Shown here: positions 23,408-35,295 of the stretch, in pieces
Position numbering within the stretch: the stretch's first letter is position 1
Layout: each line of letters begins with the position of its first letter
Assembly (NCBI GenBank): GCA_029242745.1
Contig: JAQWTI010000039.1
Location: 1-64,000, forward strand
DNA from: Acidimicrobiales bacterium
GTDB taxonomy: Bacteria; Actinomycetota; Acidimicrobiia; Acidimicrobiales; MedAcidi-G1
Length of the DNA stretch: 64,000 nucleotides
Direction: 5' to 3'
The notes under the pieces: model-generated
What the model was told of the DNA's origin: nothing
Database searches by the model: none
The model's input: the letters and a program-made list of their open reading frames with translations, nothing else
Position numbers and translations under genes: made by a program

Positions 23408-24955
23408 GTGACCCGACTCGGATTCGTTCTGGACTCCGGCAGTTGTATCGGTTGCCATGCCTGCACCGTTGCCTGTAAGAGTGAGCACGACGTACCCCTA
23501 GGGGTCAATCGAACTTGGCTCAAGTATGTAGAGACGGGGACTCATCCCGATACGGACCGGCTCTTCTCGGTCATGCGATGCAACCACTGCGATGACGCCC
23601 CTTGTATGACCATCTGCCCAACATCCGCCCTTTATAGGGCCGACAACGGTGTTGTGGACTTTCAGGATGACGACTGTATTGGCTGCAAGGCATGCATGAA
23701 TGCCTGTCCGTACGACGCGATCTATCTCAATCCAGAGACAAATACTGCGCACAAGTGCAACTTTTGCAACCACCGCATTGAGGACGGCCTTGAGCCCTCT
23801 TGCGTAGTGGTATGTCCAACTCAGGCCATTCGGGTAGGTGACCTCGATGATCCGAACAGCGAGATCAGCCGTCTCGAGTCTGAGGGAGGCTTAGTGCGCT
23901 CACCTGAGCAGAACACCCGACCCAAGGTCTTCTATACGGGTGCCACGGCGTCGTCGCTCGACCCACTGGCATCGGCCATCTCTAACGATGGATTGATTTG
24001 GGCCGACACAACGTCAAGCCATTCGACACCTTCTCAGGCTGCTCTTGCTGTGGCACCTGACCGGGAGGACGGCCTGGCTATGGCCCGCACCACCTACACA
24101 ACCCAGCACGAGCCGGTATGGGGATCGATGGTGTCGGGCTATCTAGTTACCAAGGCCATTGCAGCCGGCGTGATGTTGGTGGCGTCGTTGCTAGTGGTGC
24201 TCGGCCATGGCGATCTCCGCTCAGTGGTTGGTGTGGCCCCACCGGTGGTGGCTGGGATCTTCCTAATGGTTACTGGAGTCCTTCTGGTCGCAGACCTCAA
24301 GCAGCCGAAGCGATTTTGGTATCTGCTAAGTAGGGGTAACTCGAAGTCATGGCTGGTCAAGGGGGCGTGGGTGCTGGGCGCCTTCGCTGCCTGCCTGGTT
24401 GCTTGGTGGGTGATTGGTCTGGCTGGTGCCGGTAACGCGCTGTTGTTACTTGTTGGACCAACGGCCGTGCTGGCACTTGGCACTGCTGGTTACACGGCCT
24501 TTCTGTTCGGCCAGTGTGAGGGTCGAGATCTATGGCAAGAGTCACTGCTGTTGCCCCTGCTGCTGGCTCAGGCTTTGATGGCTGGGGGGGCAACCTGGTC
24601 GTTGCTTGATCAGTTTCTCGAGGTTCCGTCGCATGGTTCGGTTAAATGGGTTTTCCTTTTTGGTCTACTAGCCAATGCTGTGCTGGTTGGCCTCGAGGTG
24701 CGGGGCAGACACACCCGGCATGTAACCATGGCGATTGCCGACATGCGCTATGGCTCCCAGAAAAAGCGTTGGCGTGAATGGCTTTTCTGTACAGCCTTCT
24801 CTCTGCTGTTCTTAGGGCTTGACATTGTGTTCGGTGAACTTGTGTTCGACTGGACCGGCCCTGTCCAGCCGATTGTCCCCTTAGCCGCTCTCTACGGACT
24901 ATTCGCCTACGAGGATGCCTATGTACGAGCCGGCCAGTCGGTTCCCCTTTCGTAG
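23408..24955 (+). CDS. Fused four-cluster ferredoxin and NrfD/DmsC-type membrane anchor
   Basis: A 515-residue fusion of an electron-transfer subunit and a quinone-reactive anchor. Residues 1-170 bind four [4Fe-4S] clusters: CIGCHACTVACKSEHD, CNHCDDAPCMTICP, CIGCKACMNACPYDAI and CNFCNHRI with CVVVCP. From about residue 240 an NrfD-like part has eight hydrophobic helices and the signature DLKQPKRFWYLLSRGNSKSW. In most complexes these are two proteins. GTG 23408 has AAGGAA upstream. The molybdoenzyme gene follows after 30 bases, so the two proteins should form one membrane complex exchanging electrons with the quinone pool. Confidence 0.92.
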   Translation: MTRLGFVLDSGSCIGCHACTVACKSEHDVPLGVNRTWLKYVETGTHPDTDRLFSVMRCNHCDDAPCMTICPTSALYRADNGVVDFQDDDCIGCKACMNACPYDAIYLNPETNTAHKCNFCNHRIEDGLEPSCVVVCPTQAIRVGDLDDPNSEISRLESEGGLVRSPEQNTRPKVFYTGATASSLDPLASAISNDGLIWADTTSSHSTPSQAALAVAPDREDGLAMARTTYTTQHEPVWGSMVSGYLVTKAIAAGVMLVASLLVVLGHGDLRSVVGVAPPVVAGIFLMVTGVLLVADLKQPKRFWYLLSRGNSKSWLVKGAWVLGAFAACLVAWWVIGLAGAGNALLLLVGPTAVLALGTAGYTAFLFGQCEGRDLWQESLLLPLLLAQALMAGGATWSLLDQFLEVPSHGSVKWVFLFGLLANAVLVGLEVRGRHTRHVTMAIADMRYGSQKKRWREWLFCTAFSLLFLGLDIVFGELVFDWTGPVQPIVPLAALYGLFAYEDAYVRAGQSVPLS

Positions 24956-24985
24956 GTGCCGTCTCAGAGACATAATCCGGAGACC

Positions 24986-27802
24986 ATGATGACCGACCAA
25001 CTTTCTGCCTACCCACCCGAGGAGACTTGGGACCATGTCGAGTCGCTCGATCCGGCAGCCTGGCCGACGAAGGTACGGCGTGCACATCGCTTAGTACCCA
25101 CCACCTGTTTCAACTGTGAGGCGAACTGCGGTCTCTTGGCCTGGGTCGACAAGGACACTGGGAAGATCACCAAATTCGAAGGCAATCCGGTGCACCCGGC
25201 TAGCCGCGGCCGGAACTGCGCTAAGGGTCCAGCCACTATCAACCAGGTCGATGACCCCGAGCGGATCCTCCACCCCATGAAACGCGTGGGTGACCGGGGA
25301 GAAGGACTCTGGGAAGCCATTCCCTGGGAACAGGCGCTCGATGAGATCGGCACCAGAATCAGGACAGCCTTCCTCGAAGAGCGTCACCACGAGGTGATGT
25401 ATCACGTGGGTCGTATGGGCGACGACAGCTACATGGAGCGGGTACTTCATAGTTGGGGCATCGACGGCCACAACAGTCACACGAACATCTGCTCTAGTGG
25501 CGCGCGGGTGGGCTACGCCTCGTGGATGGGGTTCGATAGACCTTCAGCAGACTTCGCCAACGCCGAGGTCATCTTTCTTATCTCGTCGCACCTCGAAGCA
25601 GGGCACTATTTCAATCCACACGCCCAGCGGATCATGGAAGGGCAGAAGAACGGCGCCAAGGTTGTGTGTATTGACCCCCGGCTATCCAACACTGCGGCTA
25701 AAGCTGACCATTGGCTGTCCCCATGGCCGGGTACTGAGGCGTTTCTGTTGTTGGCTATTGCCCGTCAGTTGCTGGTGGAGGAGACCTGGGACGCTGCTTT
25801 CTTCGAACGCTGGGTGAACTGGGAAACCTTCTTGCGTGAAACTCGTCCCGACCTCGAGACCACTTTCGCCAACGTGCGTAATGCGCTCCTGGACCACTAT
25901 GGGGAATACACCCTGGCCGAGGCAGCCCGGGTGTGTGACCTAGACGAGGCGCAGATCCTTGAAGTGGCCCGTTTGGTGGGTAGTGGTTTAGGAAAGTTTG
26001 CTTCGCACACCTGGCGGGCTGCGTCAGCAGGTAATGAGGGAGGGTGGATGGTCGCTCGGTGCCTGCAGTTCTTGAACGTGCTGACCGGTTCCGTGGGTAC
26101 CAAGGGAGGAACCAACGCCAACGGGTGGAATAAGTTCATCCCGGTTACACCTATTCACCCAGAGCCCCAAGCTCGGTGGAATGAAATGCAGTGGCCGATT
26201 GAGTACCCGCTTAGCCACCATGAACTATCTATCCTCTTACCCCACTTCCTTAAAGCTGGGCGGGGACGTATTGACACCTATTTCACTCGCGTCTACAACC
26301 CTCTGTGGACCAATCCCGATGGGTTCACGTGGATGGAAGTGCTACGCGATCCTGAGTTGATCGGCTGCCACGTGGCGCTGACCCCGACTTGGAACGAGTC
26401 AGCGTGGTTCGCCGACTTTGTCCTGCCCATGGGTGTTGCGTCTGAGCGCCACGACGTTGCGAGCTATGAGACCCACAACAGCCGGTGGATCGGCTTTCGC
26501 CAACCAGTTGCTCGCCGCCATCGAGAACTCGATGGCGAGACCTTTGAGCGTACCTACGAGACAAATCCGGGGGAAGTCTGGGAAGAGCAGGAGTTCTGGA
26601 TTGATTTGTCGTGGCGCATTGACCCTGACGGGTCGCTTGGTATTCGTCAGCAGTTTGAGAGTCTAGAAAAGCCGGGCACCCCCCTCAGTCTCGACGAGTA
26701 CTACACGATGTTGTTCGAGGGTTCGGTTCCTGGTCTACCTGAGGCAGCGGCCGCCGAGGGGGTGACTCCTTTGGAGTACATGCGTCGGAAAGGTTCATTT
26801 ACCCTCCCGGGCGATCAGGCCCAGGTCTATGAACGGGAGGTGCCTGAAGAAGATCTGGTTGGCGCAGTGCGTGACACTGATGGGGTGTGGCGTCGCCCCG
26901 GGACTGCTGGTATGCACGACTCGCTTAAAGAAATCTCTGGCCACATGCCATTTATCGGTGACGGGTCGCCGGCCGTCGACATCGAAGGGAAGGCGAGGTT
27001 CGGGTTTCCGACACCGTCCAAGAAGTTGGAGTTTTTCTCGGAGACGATTCGAGATTGGGGTTGGCCTGAGTATTCAATGCCGACGTTCATTCGGAGTCAG
27101 GTCCATTGGGAAGATCTGGACATGACGGCTGGCGAGCGTATTCTCGTGCCGACATTCCGAATCCCAACACTTATTCACACTCGGTCGGCAAATAGTCAGT
27201 GGCTAAATGAAATCAGCCACCGGCACCCACTGTGGCTGCACCCATCAGATGCCGAGCAACTTGGTATCGATGAGAACGGCCTAGTCCGAATCACTACACA
27301 GATCGGTCATTTCGTGATCCAGGCATGGCGAACTGAGGGCATACGCCCCGGAGTGGTAGCGGCCAGTCACCACATGGGACGTTGGCGCCTAGAGGACAAT
27401 GCCGCCCGATCCTGGGGGACGGGTAAGGCGTCCATCGAACGTGATCAAGACGACCGATGGCGACTACGCCGAGAGCAGGGGGCAGAAGCTTACGAGAGCG
27501 ATGAGCCCGATACTGGTCTGATCTGGTGGACCGACACGGGCGTGCACCAGAATCTGACTTTTCCAGTGCAGCCTGATCCGGTTAGCGGTATGCACTGCTG
27601 GTTGCAACGGGTAACAGTTGGTCCCGCAGAATCAGGGGATTCTTATGGCGACGTGGTGGTCGACACGACTGCTTCCCACCGCATATTCCAGGAGTGGCTA
27701 TCCAAGACCCGACCTGGCCCTGGGCCTGAAAATCTTCGGCGTCCGTTGTGGATGGCTCGCCCAGTCAAGCCTCAAGCCACCGCATATCACTACGACGACT
27801 AG
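24986..27802 (+). CDS. DMSO-reductase-superfamily molybdopterin oxidoreductase, cytoplasmic type
   Basis: The catalytic subunit, 938 residues. An N-terminal [4Fe-4S] site is formed by CFNCEANC (Cys 41, 44, 48) and Cys 78 in RGRNCAKG. HTNICSSGARVGY holds Cys 169, a candidate molybdenum ligand as in polysulfide reductase, SoeA and formate dehydrogenase types. The middle carries pterin-binding stretches (CIDPRLSNTAAKAD, LTGSVGTKGGTNANG) and the C-terminal domain ends near HQNLTFPVQPDPVSG. No Tat signal is seen, so it should face the cytoplasm, unlike PsrA or DmsA. Length and this topology resemble SoeA, the cytoplasmic sulfite dehydrogenase, but substrate is not established. ATG 24986 has GGAG upstream. 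Confidence 0.88.
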   Translation: MMTDQLSAYPPEETWDHVESLDPAAWPTKVRRAHRLVPTTCFNCEANCGLLAWVDKDTGKITKFEGNPVHPASRGRNCAKGPATINQVDDPERILHPMKRVGDRGEGLWEAIPWEQALDEIGTRIRTAFLEERHHEVMYHVGRMGDDSYMERVLHSWGIDGHNSHTNICSSGARVGYASWMGFDRPSADFANAEVIFLISSHLEAGHYFNPHAQRIMEGQKNGAKVVCIDPRLSNTAAKADHWLSPWPGTEAFLLLAIARQLLVEETWDAAFFERWVNWETFLRETRPDLETTFANVRNALLDHYGEYTLAEAARVCDLDEAQILEVARLVGSGLGKFASHTWRAASAGNEGGWMVARCLQFLNVLTGSVGTKGGTNANGWNKFIPVTPIHPEPQARWNEMQWPIEYPLSHHELSILLPHFLKAGRGRIDTYFTRVYNPLWTNPDGFTWMEVLRDPELIGCHVALTPTWNESAWFADFVLPMGVASERHDVASYETHNSRWIGFRQPVARRHRELDGETFERTYETNPGEVWEEQEFWIDLSWRIDPDGSLGIRQQFESLEKPGTPLSLDEYYTMLFEGSVPGLPEAAAAEGVTPLEYMRRKGSFTLPGDQAQVYEREVPEEDLVGAVRDTDGVWRRPGTAGMHDSLKEISGHMPFIGDGSPAVDIEGKARFGFPTPSKKLEFFSETIRDWGWPEYSMPTFIRSQVHWEDLDMTAGERILVPTFRIPTLIHTRSANSQWLNEISHRHPLWLHPSDAEQLGIDENGLVRITTQIGHFVIQAWRTEGIRPGVVAASHHMGRWRLEDNAARSWGTGKASIERDQDDRWRLRREQGAEAYESDEPDTGLIWWTDTGVHQNLTFPVQPDPVSGMHCWLQRVTVGPAESGDSYGDVVVDTTASHRIFQEWLSKTRPGPGPENLRRPLWMARPVKPQATAYHYDD

Positions 27803-28586: not shown

Positions 28587-28643
28587 ACGCTGTCCAAGAC
28601 GGATACCGTCTGATTGCGTAGTTGGAACCCGAGGGGGAACACG

Positions 28644-29924
28644 ATGGAACGGGAAGTAAGCACCGGAGACGAGCCTTATATCGTCGTCTCTTCGGATACC
28701 CATGCCGGCTTGCAGTGTGAGGAATACCGGCCTTATCTCGAGTCATCACTGCATGAGGAGTTTGATGCTTATGTTGCTGAGCGCCACCAGCACCGGCAGA
28801 TCGCTGAGGAACTCAATGCAGATTTCATTGCGGAATGGGAAGGTGAGAATGAGTGGGGCCTTCGGGGTGCTTACGACCCTGATGTGCGTGATCCGGTGTT
28901 GGACGCCGACGGTGTAGCTGGGGAAATTATTTTTGCTGATGGAGATGCGGTCACAGGGCAGGAGTCTCCACCTTTTGGTGCCGGACTAGCTGCTGGGCAG
29001 ATAACCGACGCCCGGCAGGCCTTTGGAGGTGCTAGAGCGCATAACCGTTGGTTGGAGGAGTTCTGCGCCACCAACCCGGTCCGTCGGGCTGGTGTGGCTC
29101 TCATCCCCGTTGTTCACGATGTTGATGAGGCTGTCAAAGAAGTCGAGTCGCTGGCTGGTAAGCCCGGGATCAAAGGTGTGATGGTGCCCACGATGTGGCA
29201 CGGTCACCCACCTTACGGATCAGACCACTACGACCGTTTTTGGGCCGCATGTGCCGACGCTGGGCTCGTTGTTCATACGCATTCAGGTGAGGCCGACTTC
29301 GAGGCTTACAACGACAACGTGGCCATGTACATAGCTGAGGTCCCATTCTGGACTCATCGCATTCTCTGGCAGTTGCTTTTTTCAGGCAAGTTCGACAAGT
29401 TTCCGGATCTTCGTTATGCCGTGGTGGAGTGTGGATCGTTTTGGATTGGTGACCTGCTTTGGAAGGCCGATGTGAACTTTGGTGCCAGCTTCAAGGTCAA
29501 AAAGATGGGGTCGCGCATGAAGGGCCTAATTTCCCGGCTTCCATCGGAGTACTTCGGGACCAACGTTTTTATTGGGGCCTCGACCATGTCCAAGGAAGAG
29601 ATCCGTCGTCGGCATGTCAATGGCCTTGATGCCCTCATGTGGGGAACGGACTATCCCCACCCAGAAGGTTCTTGGCCCCATACCCGGGAACGCCTTGAGA
29701 ACGACTTTCAAGATGCCTCCATTGAGGACACCCGTCGGCTGCTTGGCCTCAACGCGGTGGATTGCTATGGCCTAGATGAGGTGGGTCTGAGATCCGTCGC
29801 TGACCGGATTGGCCCCACGCCCCAACAACTTGGCCAGTCGCGTGACCTGCGGACGTCGGCTGATGCGGTGCGGAAGGCCCGGTGGTGGCTCGATGAGTAC
29901 GGCTGTCAGATGCAGTACGCCTGA
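28644..29924 (+). CDS. Amidohydrolase-related TIM-barrel protein (first of tandem pair)
   Basis: A 426-residue metal-dependent hydrolase or decarboxylase of the COG2159 group. The N-terminal metal motif appears as VVSSDTHAG (Asp-x-His in place of His-x-His). Later parts are VMVPTMWHG, VVHTHSGEA with a metal-type histidine, and the closing catalytic Asp in LMWGTDYPHPEGSWPHT. Relatives act on aromatic acids and other carboxylated rings, but no substrate can be assigned. ATG 28644 has GAGGGGG upstream. It heads a run of three plus-strand genes with the second amidohydrolase and an SDR. Confidence 0.88.
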   Translation: MEREVSTGDEPYIVVSSDTHAGLQCEEYRPYLESSLHEEFDAYVAERHQHRQIAEELNADFIAEWEGENEWGLRGAYDPDVRDPVLDADGVAGEIIFADGDAVTGQESPPFGAGLAAGQITDARQAFGGARAHNRWLEEFCATNPVRRAGVALIPVVHDVDEAVKEVESLAGKPGIKGVMVPTMWHGHPPYGSDHYDRFWAACADAGLVVHTHSGEADFEAYNDNVAMYIAEVPFWTHRILWQLLFSGKFDKFPDLRYAVVECGSFWIGDLLWKADVNFGASFKVKKMGSRMKGLISRLPSEYFGTNVFIGASTMSKEEIRRRHVNGLDALMWGTDYPHPEGSWPHTRERLENDFQDASIEDTRRLLGLNAVDCYGLDEVGLRSVADRIGPTPQQLGQSRDLRTSADAVRKARWWLDEYGCQMQYA

Positions 29925-29957
29925 ATTAGTTTGACGCTGCGAGAGGGAGAGCAGATC

Positions 29958-31262
29958 ATGAGTGAGCATCACATCGTTATTTCAGCGGACACCCATTGCG
30001 GTGCTGGCCTCTGGGATTACAAGGATTATTTGGAAACGAAGTATCACGATGACTTTGACGTGTGGGCACGTGGCATCGAGGAAGGTGAGCGGCGGACTGC
30101 TGAGGCGTTTAAGGGAGCTGAGCGCTCACCATTGAATGTCGGCGTCGACGGGGATCCCGCCATCGACGGTAACCGTAACTATGACTCCGATCGCCGGTTG
30201 CGTGAACAAGAGGCCGATGGTGTGGTGGCTGCTGTTTTGTTTCCTAATACTCAACCTCCGTTTGCACCGACGGCCGCCAGCCAGTTTGAAGCTCCTGCTT
30301 ATGACGACGATGTGGGTCACCGTTGGGCGGGACTACGCGCTCATAATCGGTGGCTTCTGGATTTCGTGTCCGAGGCACCGGAACGTCGAGCAGGTATAGC
30401 CCAGATATTCCTGGGCGATATTGAGGGGTCAGTTGCTGAGATTGAGTGGGCGGCTGCCAATGGCCTGCGAGGAGGGGTACTGGTGCCCGGGACCCCTCCA
30501 GATTCTCCGTTTGAACCCTTGTATGCCGCAGCCTATGAGCCGATATGGGCGGCGGCCGAGGCCTGTGACATGCCACTCAACCACCACTCTGGTGGGGCAA
30601 CACCCAGCTTCGGAAACCACTTTCCAGCCTCACTGGCCATGTTCATGTTGGAAGTTACCTGGTGGAGTCAGAGGGCTTTGTGGCATCTGATGTTCTCTGG
30701 CGTATTCGAACGGCACCCCGATTTGCAGTGGGTTAACACCGAGACTGGGACGGCTTGGGTGCCTGAGACCCTACAGAAGTTGGATTCTTTCTATGACCGA
30801 ATGAAGTATTCAAAGTACGGCTCAGAGGCCATATTTGGCGGTGCAGCAGTTGCCGGTATGTCGCTCACTCCTTCGGAATACTGGCAGCGCCAGTGTCATG
30901 TGGGCGCCAGTTTCTTACGTCCAATAGAGGCGGAGGTGGTGCACCAAATTGGGACTGACAAGGTTATGTGGGGGTCGGACTACCCACATATTGAGGGCTC
31001 ACATCCTCACACGGACGAGCATCTGCGGCTGACTTTTGGTGAGATGACAGAAGACGAGGCCACGAAGATACTGACCACCAACACTGCAAAGATCTACAAG
31101 TTTGATCTGGCGGCGTTACAGGAGTTGGCGGACCAGCACTGCCCGACTAAGGCACGCGTGGCTTCGGGGATCGACTACGCCGATATTCCAGAGACAGCCA
31201 AAGGCTGTCCGGGTATGGCGCCTCAGAACCAGATTCAGTCGGTCCCGGCTGGGGCTGCCTGA
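29958..31262 (+). CDS. Amidohydrolase-related TIM-barrel protein (second of tandem pair)
   Basis: A 434-residue paralogue of the preceding protein. It keeps the same marks: VISADTHCGAGLWDYKDYL at the N-terminus, LNHHSGGATPSFGNHF and VMWGSDYPHIEGSHPHTDEHL near the end. Similar length and layout suggest an old duplication, perhaps giving a heteromeric enzyme or two steps of one pathway. ATG 29958 has GAGAGGGAG upstream. Its stop TGA overlaps the ATG of the SDR gene by one base, so expression is coupled. Confidence 0.88.
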   Translation: MSEHHIVISADTHCGAGLWDYKDYLETKYHDDFDVWARGIEEGERRTAEAFKGAERSPLNVGVDGDPAIDGNRNYDSDRRLREQEADGVVAAVLFPNTQPPFAPTAASQFEAPAYDDDVGHRWAGLRAHNRWLLDFVSEAPERRAGIAQIFLGDIEGSVAEIEWAAANGLRGGVLVPGTPPDSPFEPLYAAAYEPIWAAAEACDMPLNHHSGGATPSFGNHFPASLAMFMLEVTWWSQRALWHLMFSGVFERHPDLQWVNTETGTAWVPETLQKLDSFYDRMKYSKYGSEAIFGGAAVAGMSLTPSEYWQRQCHVGASFLRPIEAEVVHQIGTDKVMWGSDYPHIEGSHPHTDEHLRLTFGEMTEDEATKILTTNTAKIYKFDLAALQELADQHCPTKARVASGIDYADIPETAKGCPGMAPQNQIQSVPAGAA

Positions 31263-32208: not shown

Positions 32209-33051
32209 CTAACTGGCATTGGAACCTTTGAGAGGAGATGTCAGACCCTCGTCGTTTGCCGGTCGGTTTCGTGACAGGAACGCCCCACCGTCAGCCAAGA
32301 TGAACTGTCCTGTGATGCATCGGGCTAGGTCACTAGTCAAGAACACGGCTAGACGAGCCAATTCGTCATCCTCGACCATTGTGCGCAACGGAGTGGAGGC
32401 CACCAGAGCAGCTATCCGGTCCTCGGTGAATGCAGCGGCGACAGTCTCAGTCAGTGTGGTACCGGGAGCCATGGCATTAACCCGGATTCCGTCGGGCCCT
32501 AATTCGACGGCCATGGTGGACACCAGATGGTTGATGGCTGCCTTGGCCGCGGCGTAGACGGCGTTATACGGCGCTGGTCTCGTGGTTTCACCAGACGTTA
32601 CGAACAGAATCGAACCACCGATGCCTGAAGCTTGCATGGATTCAGCTTCAGCCCGGGCGCAGAGAGCGGCCAGCACCAAGTTCTGGTCGATAATGTCGCG
32701 CCAGTCATCTCCCCGGTTGGCTACGAAAGGCTGAGGGCGACGACCTGGTGGAAGCATCCCGACGTTGTTGACGGCCAAGTCGAGGCCACCTAGGTGTTCG
32801 ACGGTAGTAGCAACTAGCGCATCGATAGCTTCGTCATCTCGGCAGTCAGCGGCCACAGCCACGGCACGGCCACATCGATCCGGATTGGTGTTGATCTCGG
32901 ATGCAATGGCTTCAGCCCGCTCCAAGATCAGGTCATTGACGACTACAGACGCACCAGCTTGGGCAAGCCAGTGGGCAATCTTTCGGCCAATCCCGGCACC
33001 GGCACCGGTGACCAGCGCTCGGCGACCCGTGTGGTCGATCTGGATTGCCAT
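32209..33051 (-). CDS. Short-chain dehydrogenase/reductase, third gene of the UGSC unit
   Basis: A 280-residue SDR with VTGAGAGIGRKIA, NDLILERA, AVNNVGML (variant of NNAG), FVTSGETT, Tyr-Lys pair in YAAAKAAINHL and the closing TGQFILADGGAFL. The start codon is three bases after the stop of the UGSC gene, and AGGGGG lies nine bases upstream, so it belongs to the UGSC transcript. It converges on the other SDR gene. Its substrate is unknown; the context suggests a redox step tied to the UGSC protein. Confidence 0.9.
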   Translation of the reverse strand: MAIQIDHTGRRALVTGAGAGIGRKIAHWLAQAGASVVVNDLILERAEAIASEINTNPDRCGRAVAVAADCRDDEAIDALVATTVEHLGGLDLAVNNVGMLPPGRRPQPFVANRGDDWRDIIDQNLVLAALCARAEAESMQASGIGGSILFVTSGETTRPAPYNAVYAAAKAAINHLVSTMAVELGPDGIRVNAMAPGTTLTETVAAAFTEDRIAALVASTPLRTMVEDDELARLAVFLTSDLARCITGQFILADGGAFLSRNRPANDEGLTSPLKGSNAS

Positions 33052-33054
33052 TAC

Positions 33055-33600
33055 TTAATGCCCCCTAGTAGCGGTACCGGTAAGGAGAGCCAGTACCTGA
33101 TCGACGACCTCGTCGGCTCGAACTCGGATCTCGTCAGGGTCGACACCCCCAATCGGGTGAGAGACCCTGACGATCCGGAGATCTGCAAGCCTGAGATCGC
33201 GCGCTGTCTGATTTGCCAACGTGGACATAGCTTCGGTGGCCACCAACACCGTTGGCCGGCCGGCTATCTCAAGTTTTACAGAGTCGTGGACACTCCACGA
33301 TGTACAGCTACCTCAATCAGCGGTGCCAGTAAGAATCAAGTCAACCTGTTCGGCCAATAGACCCAAGACCTGGTCTTCGCATGGGAGGGCAGCGTTTTTG
33401 GTATCAGTACGCACCACGATGGCGCCCGTGCGTTCAACGAGCCGATTGGCTAATCGGTGCAGCAACACATCAGCATTGGGCTTGCGATTATCGAGGATCC
33501 CGATACGAGAACCTGCCAGAACGGGTAGCGCGGGGGCTAGTTCAGGGGCTGATCGGTCAGGGTCTTGGGCGACGGCTCCGTCAGGGCGGTAGATCAGCAT
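33055..33600 (-). CDS. UGSC-family selenoprotein, in-frame TGA read as selenocysteine at residue 96
   Basis: Read through one TGA, this frame gives 181 residues from ATG 33600 to TAA 33055. Without readthrough it would be called as two pieces (33600-33313 and an internal GTG at 33249). Residues before the TGA are LILTGTAD; those after are GSCTSWSVHDSVKLEIAG, so the centre reads D-U-G-S-C, the signature of the UGSC family, whose members carry Sec, Cys or Thr at the first place. No other stop interrupts the frame. The N-terminal part (IGILDNRKPNADVLLHRLA) and the end (RIVRVSHPIGGVDPDEI) also look like the family. A SECIS-like hairpin follows the TGA. The start overlaps the stop of the partner gene. 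Function of the family is unknown; a U-x-x-C redox pair is likely. selA, selB and tRNA-Sec are outside the window. Confidence 0.87.
33284..33300 (-). promoter_or_regulatory. Bacterial SECIS-like hairpin after the UGSC TGA
   Basis: On the minus strand TCGTGGA-GTG-TCCACGA is a perfect 7-bp stem with a 3-base loop. It begins 12 bases after the TGA, so the loop is reached after 19 bases, and the first loop base is G. These match the usual bacterial SECIS rules (loop 16-37 bases from UGA, short loop with G in its first two positions). ACA before and TGT after could extend the stem past a bulge. Confidence 0.8.
33313..33315 (-). other. Predicted selenocysteine codon (TGA)
   Basis: Minus-strand TGA, codon 96 of the UGSC gene, flanked by GAT before and GGT AGC TGT after. 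The reading frame is open on both sides with family-like sequence, and the hairpin at 33284-33300 follows. It would be a plain stop only if the gene is broken or the organism lacks selenocysteine insertion. Confidence 0.82.
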
Positions 33601-34670
33601 GAAACCTGCTGGTCCACTGCAACGGTCACGCTCCGGGTCATGCCCCAACTTGGGATTACTGAGCTGTGCTTACCGGGTCCACCCACCACGAGGACCCGAA
33701 TATTTTTTTGGTCCCCAGTCATGGGTGCCAGTTCGTCATCACGTAGGCAGTTCATCCACGGAGGCCAGGCTCGCAGGGAGAATGCCTCCTTTAACTCAGC
33801 GGCTGGAAGACGAGCCTTCTGAAAGAGGTAAGAGGCTACGTCGTGGCGTGACCAGCCGGCCTCGGCACATGTTGCAGCGTGCTCTGGGCACAGGGCCACG
33901 AGGTATTCGCCCTGGCTGATACAGGCATTGTTCTGAGCCGTGGTAGCCATGGCTGAGGCAACCTTGTTGAGAATCTGGGACGGATTGTCCGACTCCATGT
34001 CGTGAACGTTGTGGGGGGCCTCACCGCAGTAGATAGTCACCGAAGATGGAGCGTTTACGCCAACTGTGGTCGGGTAGGTGGGCCACGGGGAGGCATCCAT
34101 GTTCTCGGCTATGCAGAATCCGTATTTGGCTGGGCCGCCTTGGGTTGAAGCGTCACCGGCACCAATCGTGGCGCCAGCCACATGGAGCAGGACCAACCTG
34201 AGGGCCCGGCCTGTAGTGGCATTGGCCCTGTTGCCAGGACCGAAGGCACCGAGGCCTCCGTTGTAGCCACCTGTGCGGGCGATTTCACCGTGGACAATCA
34301 AAAGGGGAGCCACGCAGTGGGTAGTGGCATTAATTCCTCGCAAGTTCACTTCTGGCCTGGCTAGAGCTCGAACGGCAGCAACTAGAACCGGGAAATGAAC
34401 GGGGAGGCAGCCTGCCATCACAGCATTAACTGCCAGGATTTGCCGGCTGACTTCACCGAAGCGGGGAGGAAGGATGCTGATGATTTCATCGGGGTCCAGG
34501 CTTGGACCGTCGGGTTCATTCAGGCCCGACAGCATCGCCTTAACCCTTTCCGGAGTGGGTGCCACCAGTGGGAGTCCGTCACCCCAGCCGCGATCAGCCA
34601 TCTCGGCCACGAGGTCACCGTTAGCAGGGAATTCGATGAGAGGGCCATCTGAATGTGTGTCTACAGTCAT
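33594..34670 (-). CDS. Conserved partner protein of the UGSC gene
   Basis: A 358-residue protein of no named function that I associate with UGSC genes, sometimes as the N-terminal part of a longer UGSC protein; that link is from memory. Conserved-looking stretches are VAEMADRGWGDGLPLVAPTP near the N-terminus, ILAVNAVMAGCLPVHFPVLV, GAFGPGNRANATTGRALRL, YGFCIAENMDASPWPTYP and a late VLVVGGPGKHSSVI. No signal peptide or membrane helix is seen. ATG 34670 follows the palindrome-rich gap; the frame further upstream overlaps the divergent TetR gene. The last codons overlap the UGSC start (ATGCTGA), so the pair is translationally coupled. Confidence 0.8.
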   Translation of the reverse strand: MTVDTHSDGPLIEFPANGDLVAEMADRGWGDGLPLVAPTPERVKAMLSGLNEPDGPSLDPDEIISILPPRFGEVSRQILAVNAVMAGCLPVHFPVLVAAVRALARPEVNLRGINATTHCVAPLLIVHGEIARTGGYNGGLGAFGPGNRANATTGRALRLVLLHVAGATIGAGDASTQGGPAKYGFCIAENMDASPWPTYPTTVGVNAPSSVTIYCGEAPHNVHDMESDNPSQILNKVASAMATTAQNNACISQGEYLVALCPEHAATCAEAGWSRHDVASYLFQKARLPAAELKEAFSLRAWPPWMNCLRDDELAPMTGDQKNIRVLVVGGPGKHSSVIPSWGMTRSVTVAVDQQVSC

Positions 34671-34728: not shown

Positions 34729-35295
34729 ATGGCAGCAAGACGAGGGGTGACGAGGAAGCAGTTGGCGGACGCCGCTCTTGCAGTTCTCGATGCTGAGAAC
34801 CGGATAGAAGCCGTCAAGCTCGGAGCTGTGGCCAAGCGGCTGGGTATTCGCAGCCAGTCGTTATACGCCCACGTTGAAGGTGTTGCAGGATTACGTCGAT
34901 TGCTGGCTCTTTGGACTCTCGAAGAGTTGACTCAGGTTGTCATGGGCGCGGCCGTTGGTCGCTCGGGGCGCGATGCTGTTGAGGCGATCCTGAGGGCCAA
35001 CCTGGCGTTTGCTATCAAACACCCTGGACGGTTTGAAGCCTCACTCCATCCACCAGGAAATGATCTCGAACTCGCCATTGCAGTAGAGCGGGCAGGGCAG
35101 CCTCTCCAAAGCGTGCTCACCTCTCTCGGCTTGGATGCTGAACAACGAATTCACTGGATCCGATTGCAATTGTCTCTGATTGTTGGCTTTACCGCTCTCG
35201 TCCAGAATGGTCGACTCACCCTTGCGCCGGATCCCCTAACCACCGTGGATCATGTGGTTGCCACGCTTCTGGACCGACTGGAGCGTTGTTCATAG
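34729..35295 (+). CDS. TetR-family transcriptional regulator of the UGSC unit
   Basis: A 188-residue TetR protein. The DNA-binding part reads TRKQLADAALAVLDAENRIEAVKL, then AVAKRLGIRSQSLYAHVEGVAGL; the C-terminal part has ANLAFAIKHPGRFEASLH as in WHG-type ligand domains. It is divergent from the UGSC partner gene with 58 bases between starts, and palindromes lie between, so control of the UGSC-SDR unit and itself is likely. The inducer is unknown. Confidence 0.88.
   Translation: MAARRGVTRKQLADAALAVLDAENRIEAVKLGAVAKRLGIRSQSLYAHVEGVAGLRRLLALWTLEELTQVVMGAAVGRSGRDAVEAILRANLAFAIKHPGRFEASLHPPGNDLELAIAVERAGQPLQSVLTSLGLDAEQRIHWIRLQLSLIVGFTALVQNGRLTLAPDPLTTVDHVVATLLDRLERCS

Follow-up and report, generated by a model that had tools for sequence, protein, structure and literature searches.

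A UGSC selenoprotein and its conserved partner: a probable thioredoxin-linked reductase and remote relative of the glycine and proline reductases

The locus and its reading frame

The window analysed here, a stretch of 64,000 nucleotides from the genome of an Acidimicrobiales bacterium, holds near its middle a group of minus-strand genes next to a divergent regulator. Its features are the following.

33055..33600, minus strand: predicted UGSC selenoprotein gene, 181 residues with selenocysteine (Sec) at position 96, based on family models, homologue alignment and an AF2 model
33313..33315, minus strand: in-frame TGA, read as Sec96, the first residue of U-G-S-C; every aligned homologue has U or C there, and the codon aligns with the Sec codon of GrdB/PrdB
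33284..33300, minus strand: bacterial SECIS hairpin, nucleotides +13 to +29 after the UGA (UCGUGGA-GUG-UCCACGA)
33594..34670, minus strand: partner gene, here called P, about 358 residues from an ATG at 34670 in a frame open to 34835; overlaps the UGSC start by 7 nucleotides
32209..33051, minus strand: short-chain dehydrogenase (SDR), separated from UGSC by 3 nucleotides (TAA-GTA-ATG) and apparently the third gene of an operon
34729..35295, plus strand: divergent TetR-type regulator (PF13305, E=2e-12)

The divergent regulator is likely to control the operon. Elsewhere in the window, two tandem amidohydrolases of the PF04909 family lie near the cassette (28614-31262), and related genes are also found near it in relatives (L116 and L117); a molybdopterin oxidoreductase adjoins an Fe-S/NrfD protein at 23408-27802.

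From its ATG to codon 181 (33600..33058, minus strand) the UGSC frame is interrupted only by the TGA at 33315-33313, as a sequence-only reading of this DNA had described, and it closes with a TAA at 33057-33055. The codons that follow the TGA, GGT AGC TGT, specify Gly-Ser-Cys. When read through, the protein matches PF24696 over residues 14-174 (E=2.9e-45; 154.9 bits for a cut-off of 25) and NF041046 (UGSC_fam) with 138.9 bits, above the curated cut-off of 125. Both sides of the UGA align in 29 homologues of 27-68% identity, which carry Cys at the UGA site in three loci (L026, L028 and L040) and U in all others, so that the two flanks do form one protein, as that reading had proposed. By these matches the frame is far beyond chance. 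Invariant in the alignment are K40, K68, D95, C/U96, G97, C99, S103, D106, E111, G114, P116, H148 and P149.

Taken alone, the gene is a further member of the already known UGSC family, whose curated cut-offs it passes and with which it shares the U-G-S-C motif and the exchange of Sec for Cys. What differs is that the library entries and the literature searched describe this family without a function, whereas a partner, a link to thioredoxin and a fold are proposed here. The family had been presented as known mainly from marine metagenomes, and this has to be corrected, as the GOS study found it to be more abundant in non-marine samples (PMC2398784). The same genome has two more UGSC genes, on contigs C33 and C50, in which UGA likewise stands at the motif position. 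A Cys-form UGSC protein carrying a C-terminal NifU-like domain (PF01106, E=5e-7) is encoded at L097:9950-10759.

Decoding of UGA as selenocysteine

We consider it almost certain, from the combined genomic evidence, that the organism uses its own SelA, SelB, SelD and tRNA-Sec to decode the UGA of codon 96 as Sec, with the help of the downstream hairpin, and we infer that selenium is in fact inserted at this position. The genome (2.44 Mb, 94.7% complete) encodes all four components that the sequence-only reading had proposed to look for: a tRNA-Sec with anticodon UCA, adjacent selA and selB genes on contig C46, and on contig C11 a selD gene which has an in-frame TGA of its own. With these and the homologues aligned across the TGA, neither of the two outcomes that this reading had named as its refutation was found. 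Among 395 genomes of the class, taken to be Acidimicrobiia because two of its loci agree exactly in protein with named Acidimicrobiia/Actinomycetota contigs, UGSC was found in 139, and among the matches listed selA accompanies 97 of the 102 genomes with a UGA-form UGSC, as against one of the seven with Cys forms only (Fisher p=1.5e-6, the related genomes not being independent). Five UGA-form genomes gave no strong selA match; three of them are 56-79% complete and two about 96%. In one genome (G364, locus L105), 96% complete and with no selA match, a UGA-type UGSC gene stands without an adjoining partner gene.

The hairpin was judged by covariation of its base pairs rather than by general hairpin energy, because energies separate the two forms weakly (-12.5 kcal/mol for Sec, -11.6 for Cys). 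Its six inner pairs are formed in all 67 distinct UGSC Sec sites, the pair +18/+24 being C-G in 54 of them and G-C in 13. Among the first 50 sites this switch accompanies an amino-acid change, TGG (Trp) occurring with GTC (Val) and TGC, GGC, GCC or AGC with GTG, CTG or TTG, both without exception. The Ser codon of the loop is AGT in 67 of 67 Sec sites and in none of the 16 Cys forms that bear Ser there, and the five inner pairs are kept by only 27% of Cys forms. Since synonymous codons are constrained in this way, the protein sequence alone does not explain the hairpin.

That the UGA might be a genuine stop, in a pseudogene, through a sequencing error or between two separate peptides, would fit the behaviour of routine gene calling, which ends there: the list of open reading frames contains 33313-33648, terminated by the UGA. 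A stop is nevertheless very improbable, in view of a protein conserved on both sides of the codon, of UGA-type genes in 102 sampled genomes (97 with selA among the matches listed) and of a SECIS constraint that reaches synonymous codons. An altered code in which UGA specifies another amino acid, for which we found no supporting point, is the least probable reading of all, P ending in UGA within the same operon, the tRNA-Sec having a UCA anticodon and the residue that replaces Sec in homologues being Cys. Decoding as Sec, which had first been suggested from the letters only, is now upheld by family models, Sec/Cys exchange, a covarying SECIS element, a complete Sec machinery and the co-occurrence of selA.

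A fixed partner in probably catabolic neighbourhoods

P lies immediately upstream of UGSC in the window. Searches of Pfam, NCBIfam and the PDB returned no match to it or to its profile. Two candidate identities were set aside: cyclic amide hydrolases (AtzD/TrzD, PF09663) formed the top Foldseek group, weak at E 4.5e-3, and reached 0.08% in profile comparison, and GrdE reached 0.09%.

A P homologue adjoins UGSC, in either gene order, in all 48 Cys-type loci, a set gathered by the Cys-form pattern only and which carries no information on the frequency of Sec; these loci span Actinomycetota, Pseudomonadota, Myxococcota, Binatota, Bacillota and haloarchaea. A P homologue also adjoins the gene in nearly all Sec loci, the exceptions being one contig edge, one locus without P and two loci with a short gap. 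Because the Sec and Cys states on the UGSC tree require at least six changes, the pairing has been kept across repeated exchange of the two residues. This conservation supports the view that P and UGSC work as a pair, and they may well do so as a physical complex. The GOS study has a fusion of UGSC with Unknown_1 (PMC2398784), and Unknown_1 may be equivalent to P.

In 18 loci of the set an SDR homologue is found no further than 4 kb away. The wider neighbours comprise amidohydrolases, SDRs, CoA-transferases, acyl-CoA enzymes, transporters and regulators of the LysR, GntR, IclR and TetR types, under names that are our own labels unless backed by a Pfam scan. It is this company that points to a role of the pair in dispensable catabolic pathways.

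Thioredoxin and a predicted second selenocysteine

Genes of thioredoxin or its reductase adjoin the pair in several lineages. A Nocardioidaceae genome (L097) has an operon that runs from thioredoxin reductase through thioredoxin and P to UGSC; Nonomuraea sediminis (L086) has thioredoxin, P and UGSC in this order; and in a Mycobacteriaceae genome (L072) a fusion of thioredoxin reductase with thioredoxin stands beside UGSC and P. The association goes as far as fusion in one large clade, where an N-terminal thioredoxin-like CxxC domain (profile E=1.9e-6 with PDB thioredoxins) is joined to P and followed by a PG-C-GS motif. The cassette of the window is without a thioredoxin domain of its own.

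In the taxonomic family of the window's organism the Cys of this PG-C-GS motif is replaced by an in-frame UGA, on contig C33 of the same genome and in nearly all relatives carrying the fusion, four genomes of one genus having Cys instead. On C33 the fused gene (L100:6295-7758, motif RPG-U-GS) is directly upstream of the second UGSC gene and makes up with it a predicted two-Sec cassette. The UGA is followed by a hairpin of its own, with loop CGGGC (CGGTC in two cases) and a compensatory change from C-G to T-A at +18/+28, which is largely lost in Cys forms. A selenoprotein with PG-U-GS was not found in the family libraries or the literature searched, though it may have been reported elsewhere.

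Fold and relation to GrdB and PrdB

The GOS study supposed a thioredoxin-like fold for UGSC (PMC2398784). The AF2 model obtained here (pLDDT 92.1, pTM 0.88) has alternating strands and helices in a Rossmann-like sheet; Sec96 and Cys99 lie where the helix after the third strand starts, Sec96 at its N-terminus. A direct sequence search of the PDB with UGSC gave no match; the structures nearest to the model have folds of the Rossmann, flavodoxin and receiver kinds, and no function follows from so widespread an arrangement alone. The best matches include no thioredoxin, an absence from a list that is no proof.

It is in profile comparison that a relationship emerges. hhalign places UGSC on a PrdB-like set with 89% (E=2.2e-6) and on GrdB with 78% (E=1.7e-5), Sec on Sec in both, in an alignment that includes the G-I-P-T stretch after Sec; an unrelated control gave 0.06% and E 0.77, and a larger UGSC alignment repeats the match. 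The match covers only about 80-90 residues. PF07355, the GrdB model, does not recognise UGSC (hmmscan at E 0.001, with PF24696 as the sole match), and the PF07355 match ends just short of the Sec motif. The profile comparison supports homology of UGSC with the Sec-bearing C-terminal part of GrdB and PrdB.

The likeness to GrdB, a subunit of glycine, betaine and sarcosine reductases, extends to Sec, which closes the same strand and is followed by a helix and G-I-P-T, and would extend to thioredoxin as the source of electrons; UGSC differs in its 181 residues, compared with about 435, in the lack of the N-terminal part and in a partner other than GrdE. To PrdB of D-proline reductase it is similar as a single small chain with a UxxC pair, and it differs in that P is unlike the GrdE family, which PrdA resembles, and in that no PrdC was seen.

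Discussion

We propose that P and UGSC probably constitute a two-subunit, thioredoxin-linked reductase, a distant relative of glycine and proline reductases. For D-proline reductase it has been proposed that PrdA holds the substrate while the Sec of PrdB attacks it, and that this Sec then leaves as a selenide-sulphide, which the electron donor reduces; glycine reductase receives its electrons through thioredoxin reductase and thioredoxin (PMC3091704). On this model, UGSC would take the part of the Sec subunit and P that of the substrate subunit, with thioredoxin as the donor. In the P-UGSC pair, similarly, P would bind the substrate, and the Sec96 selenolate would attack it or accept its oxidising equivalent; Cys99 would then resolve the selenium into a selenenyl-sulphide, to be re-reduced by thioredoxin, whether encoded by a separate gene or provided by the thioredoxin-like domain fused to P. 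In relatives with the fusion, the PG-[U/C]-GS motif could act as a further relay site. This chemistry need not be of the GrdE/PrdA type, because P has no profile similarity to the pyruvoyl subunits (0.09%). The whole explanation, from Sec decoding and the GrdB/PrdB-related subunit to the pairing with P and a catabolic reductase fed by thioredoxin, is in our opinion moderately well founded.

Two other functions have to be weighed, and we hold each of them, to the same degree, to be unlikely. UGSC might be a general thiol-disulphide oxidoreductase or peroxidase of thioredoxin-like fold, as the GOS study supposed, and the UxxC motif would be in keeping with this, as would the peroxidase activity reported for GrdB (cited in PMC3091704); yet the confident model is Rossmann-like, with flavodoxin- and receiver-like proteins as the closest solved folds, the profile similarity goes to GrdB and PrdB, and a fixed partner in regulated catabolic neighbourhoods is atypical of a general redox protein. 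The pair might, on the other hand, be a true reductase of the glycine or D-proline type, with a pyruvoyl group on P and UGSC cleaving the C-N bond of an amino acid. The relation of UGSC to GrdB and PrdB, the thioredoxin link known from glycine reductase (PMC3091704) and a two-gene layout resembling the GrdE-GrdB pair of the same genome would speak for it, but P shows no relation to GrdE in profile comparison, the Cys in the ATTHC stretch of the window's P is not conserved, the neighbours include no amino-acid fermentation genes, and the pair also occurs in haloarchaea, sphingomonads and streptomycetes.

Compared with these, our own reading of a thioredoxin-fed catabolic reductase can be taken one step further, in a more speculative vein: P-UGSC may represent an undescribed class of two-subunit selenoenzymes performing reductive cleavage outside amino-acid fermentation, and the thioredoxin-fused P with PG-U-GS a second, unrecognised selenoprotein family. 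What sets this case apart from the known family is the P-UGSC pair, together with the link to GrdB/PrdB and the second Sec, and the partner gene, the relation to GrdB/PrdB and the thioredoxin link go past what had been claimed for this DNA. UGSC becomes assayable once it has a constant partner, a source of electrons and relatives whose mechanism is understood. The selenoproteomes of these bacteria are undercounted, because the partner gene, too, is truncated by routine annotation at its UGA.

The genome of the window's organism also carries a GrdE-GrdB pair (C24:64960-67387; L145, L168), with a UGA in the U-G-T-G motif of GrdB, and a small PrdB-like match to PF07355 on the window's own contig, about 86 kb away (C27:120147-120587), a further fragment of this kind being found on C44.
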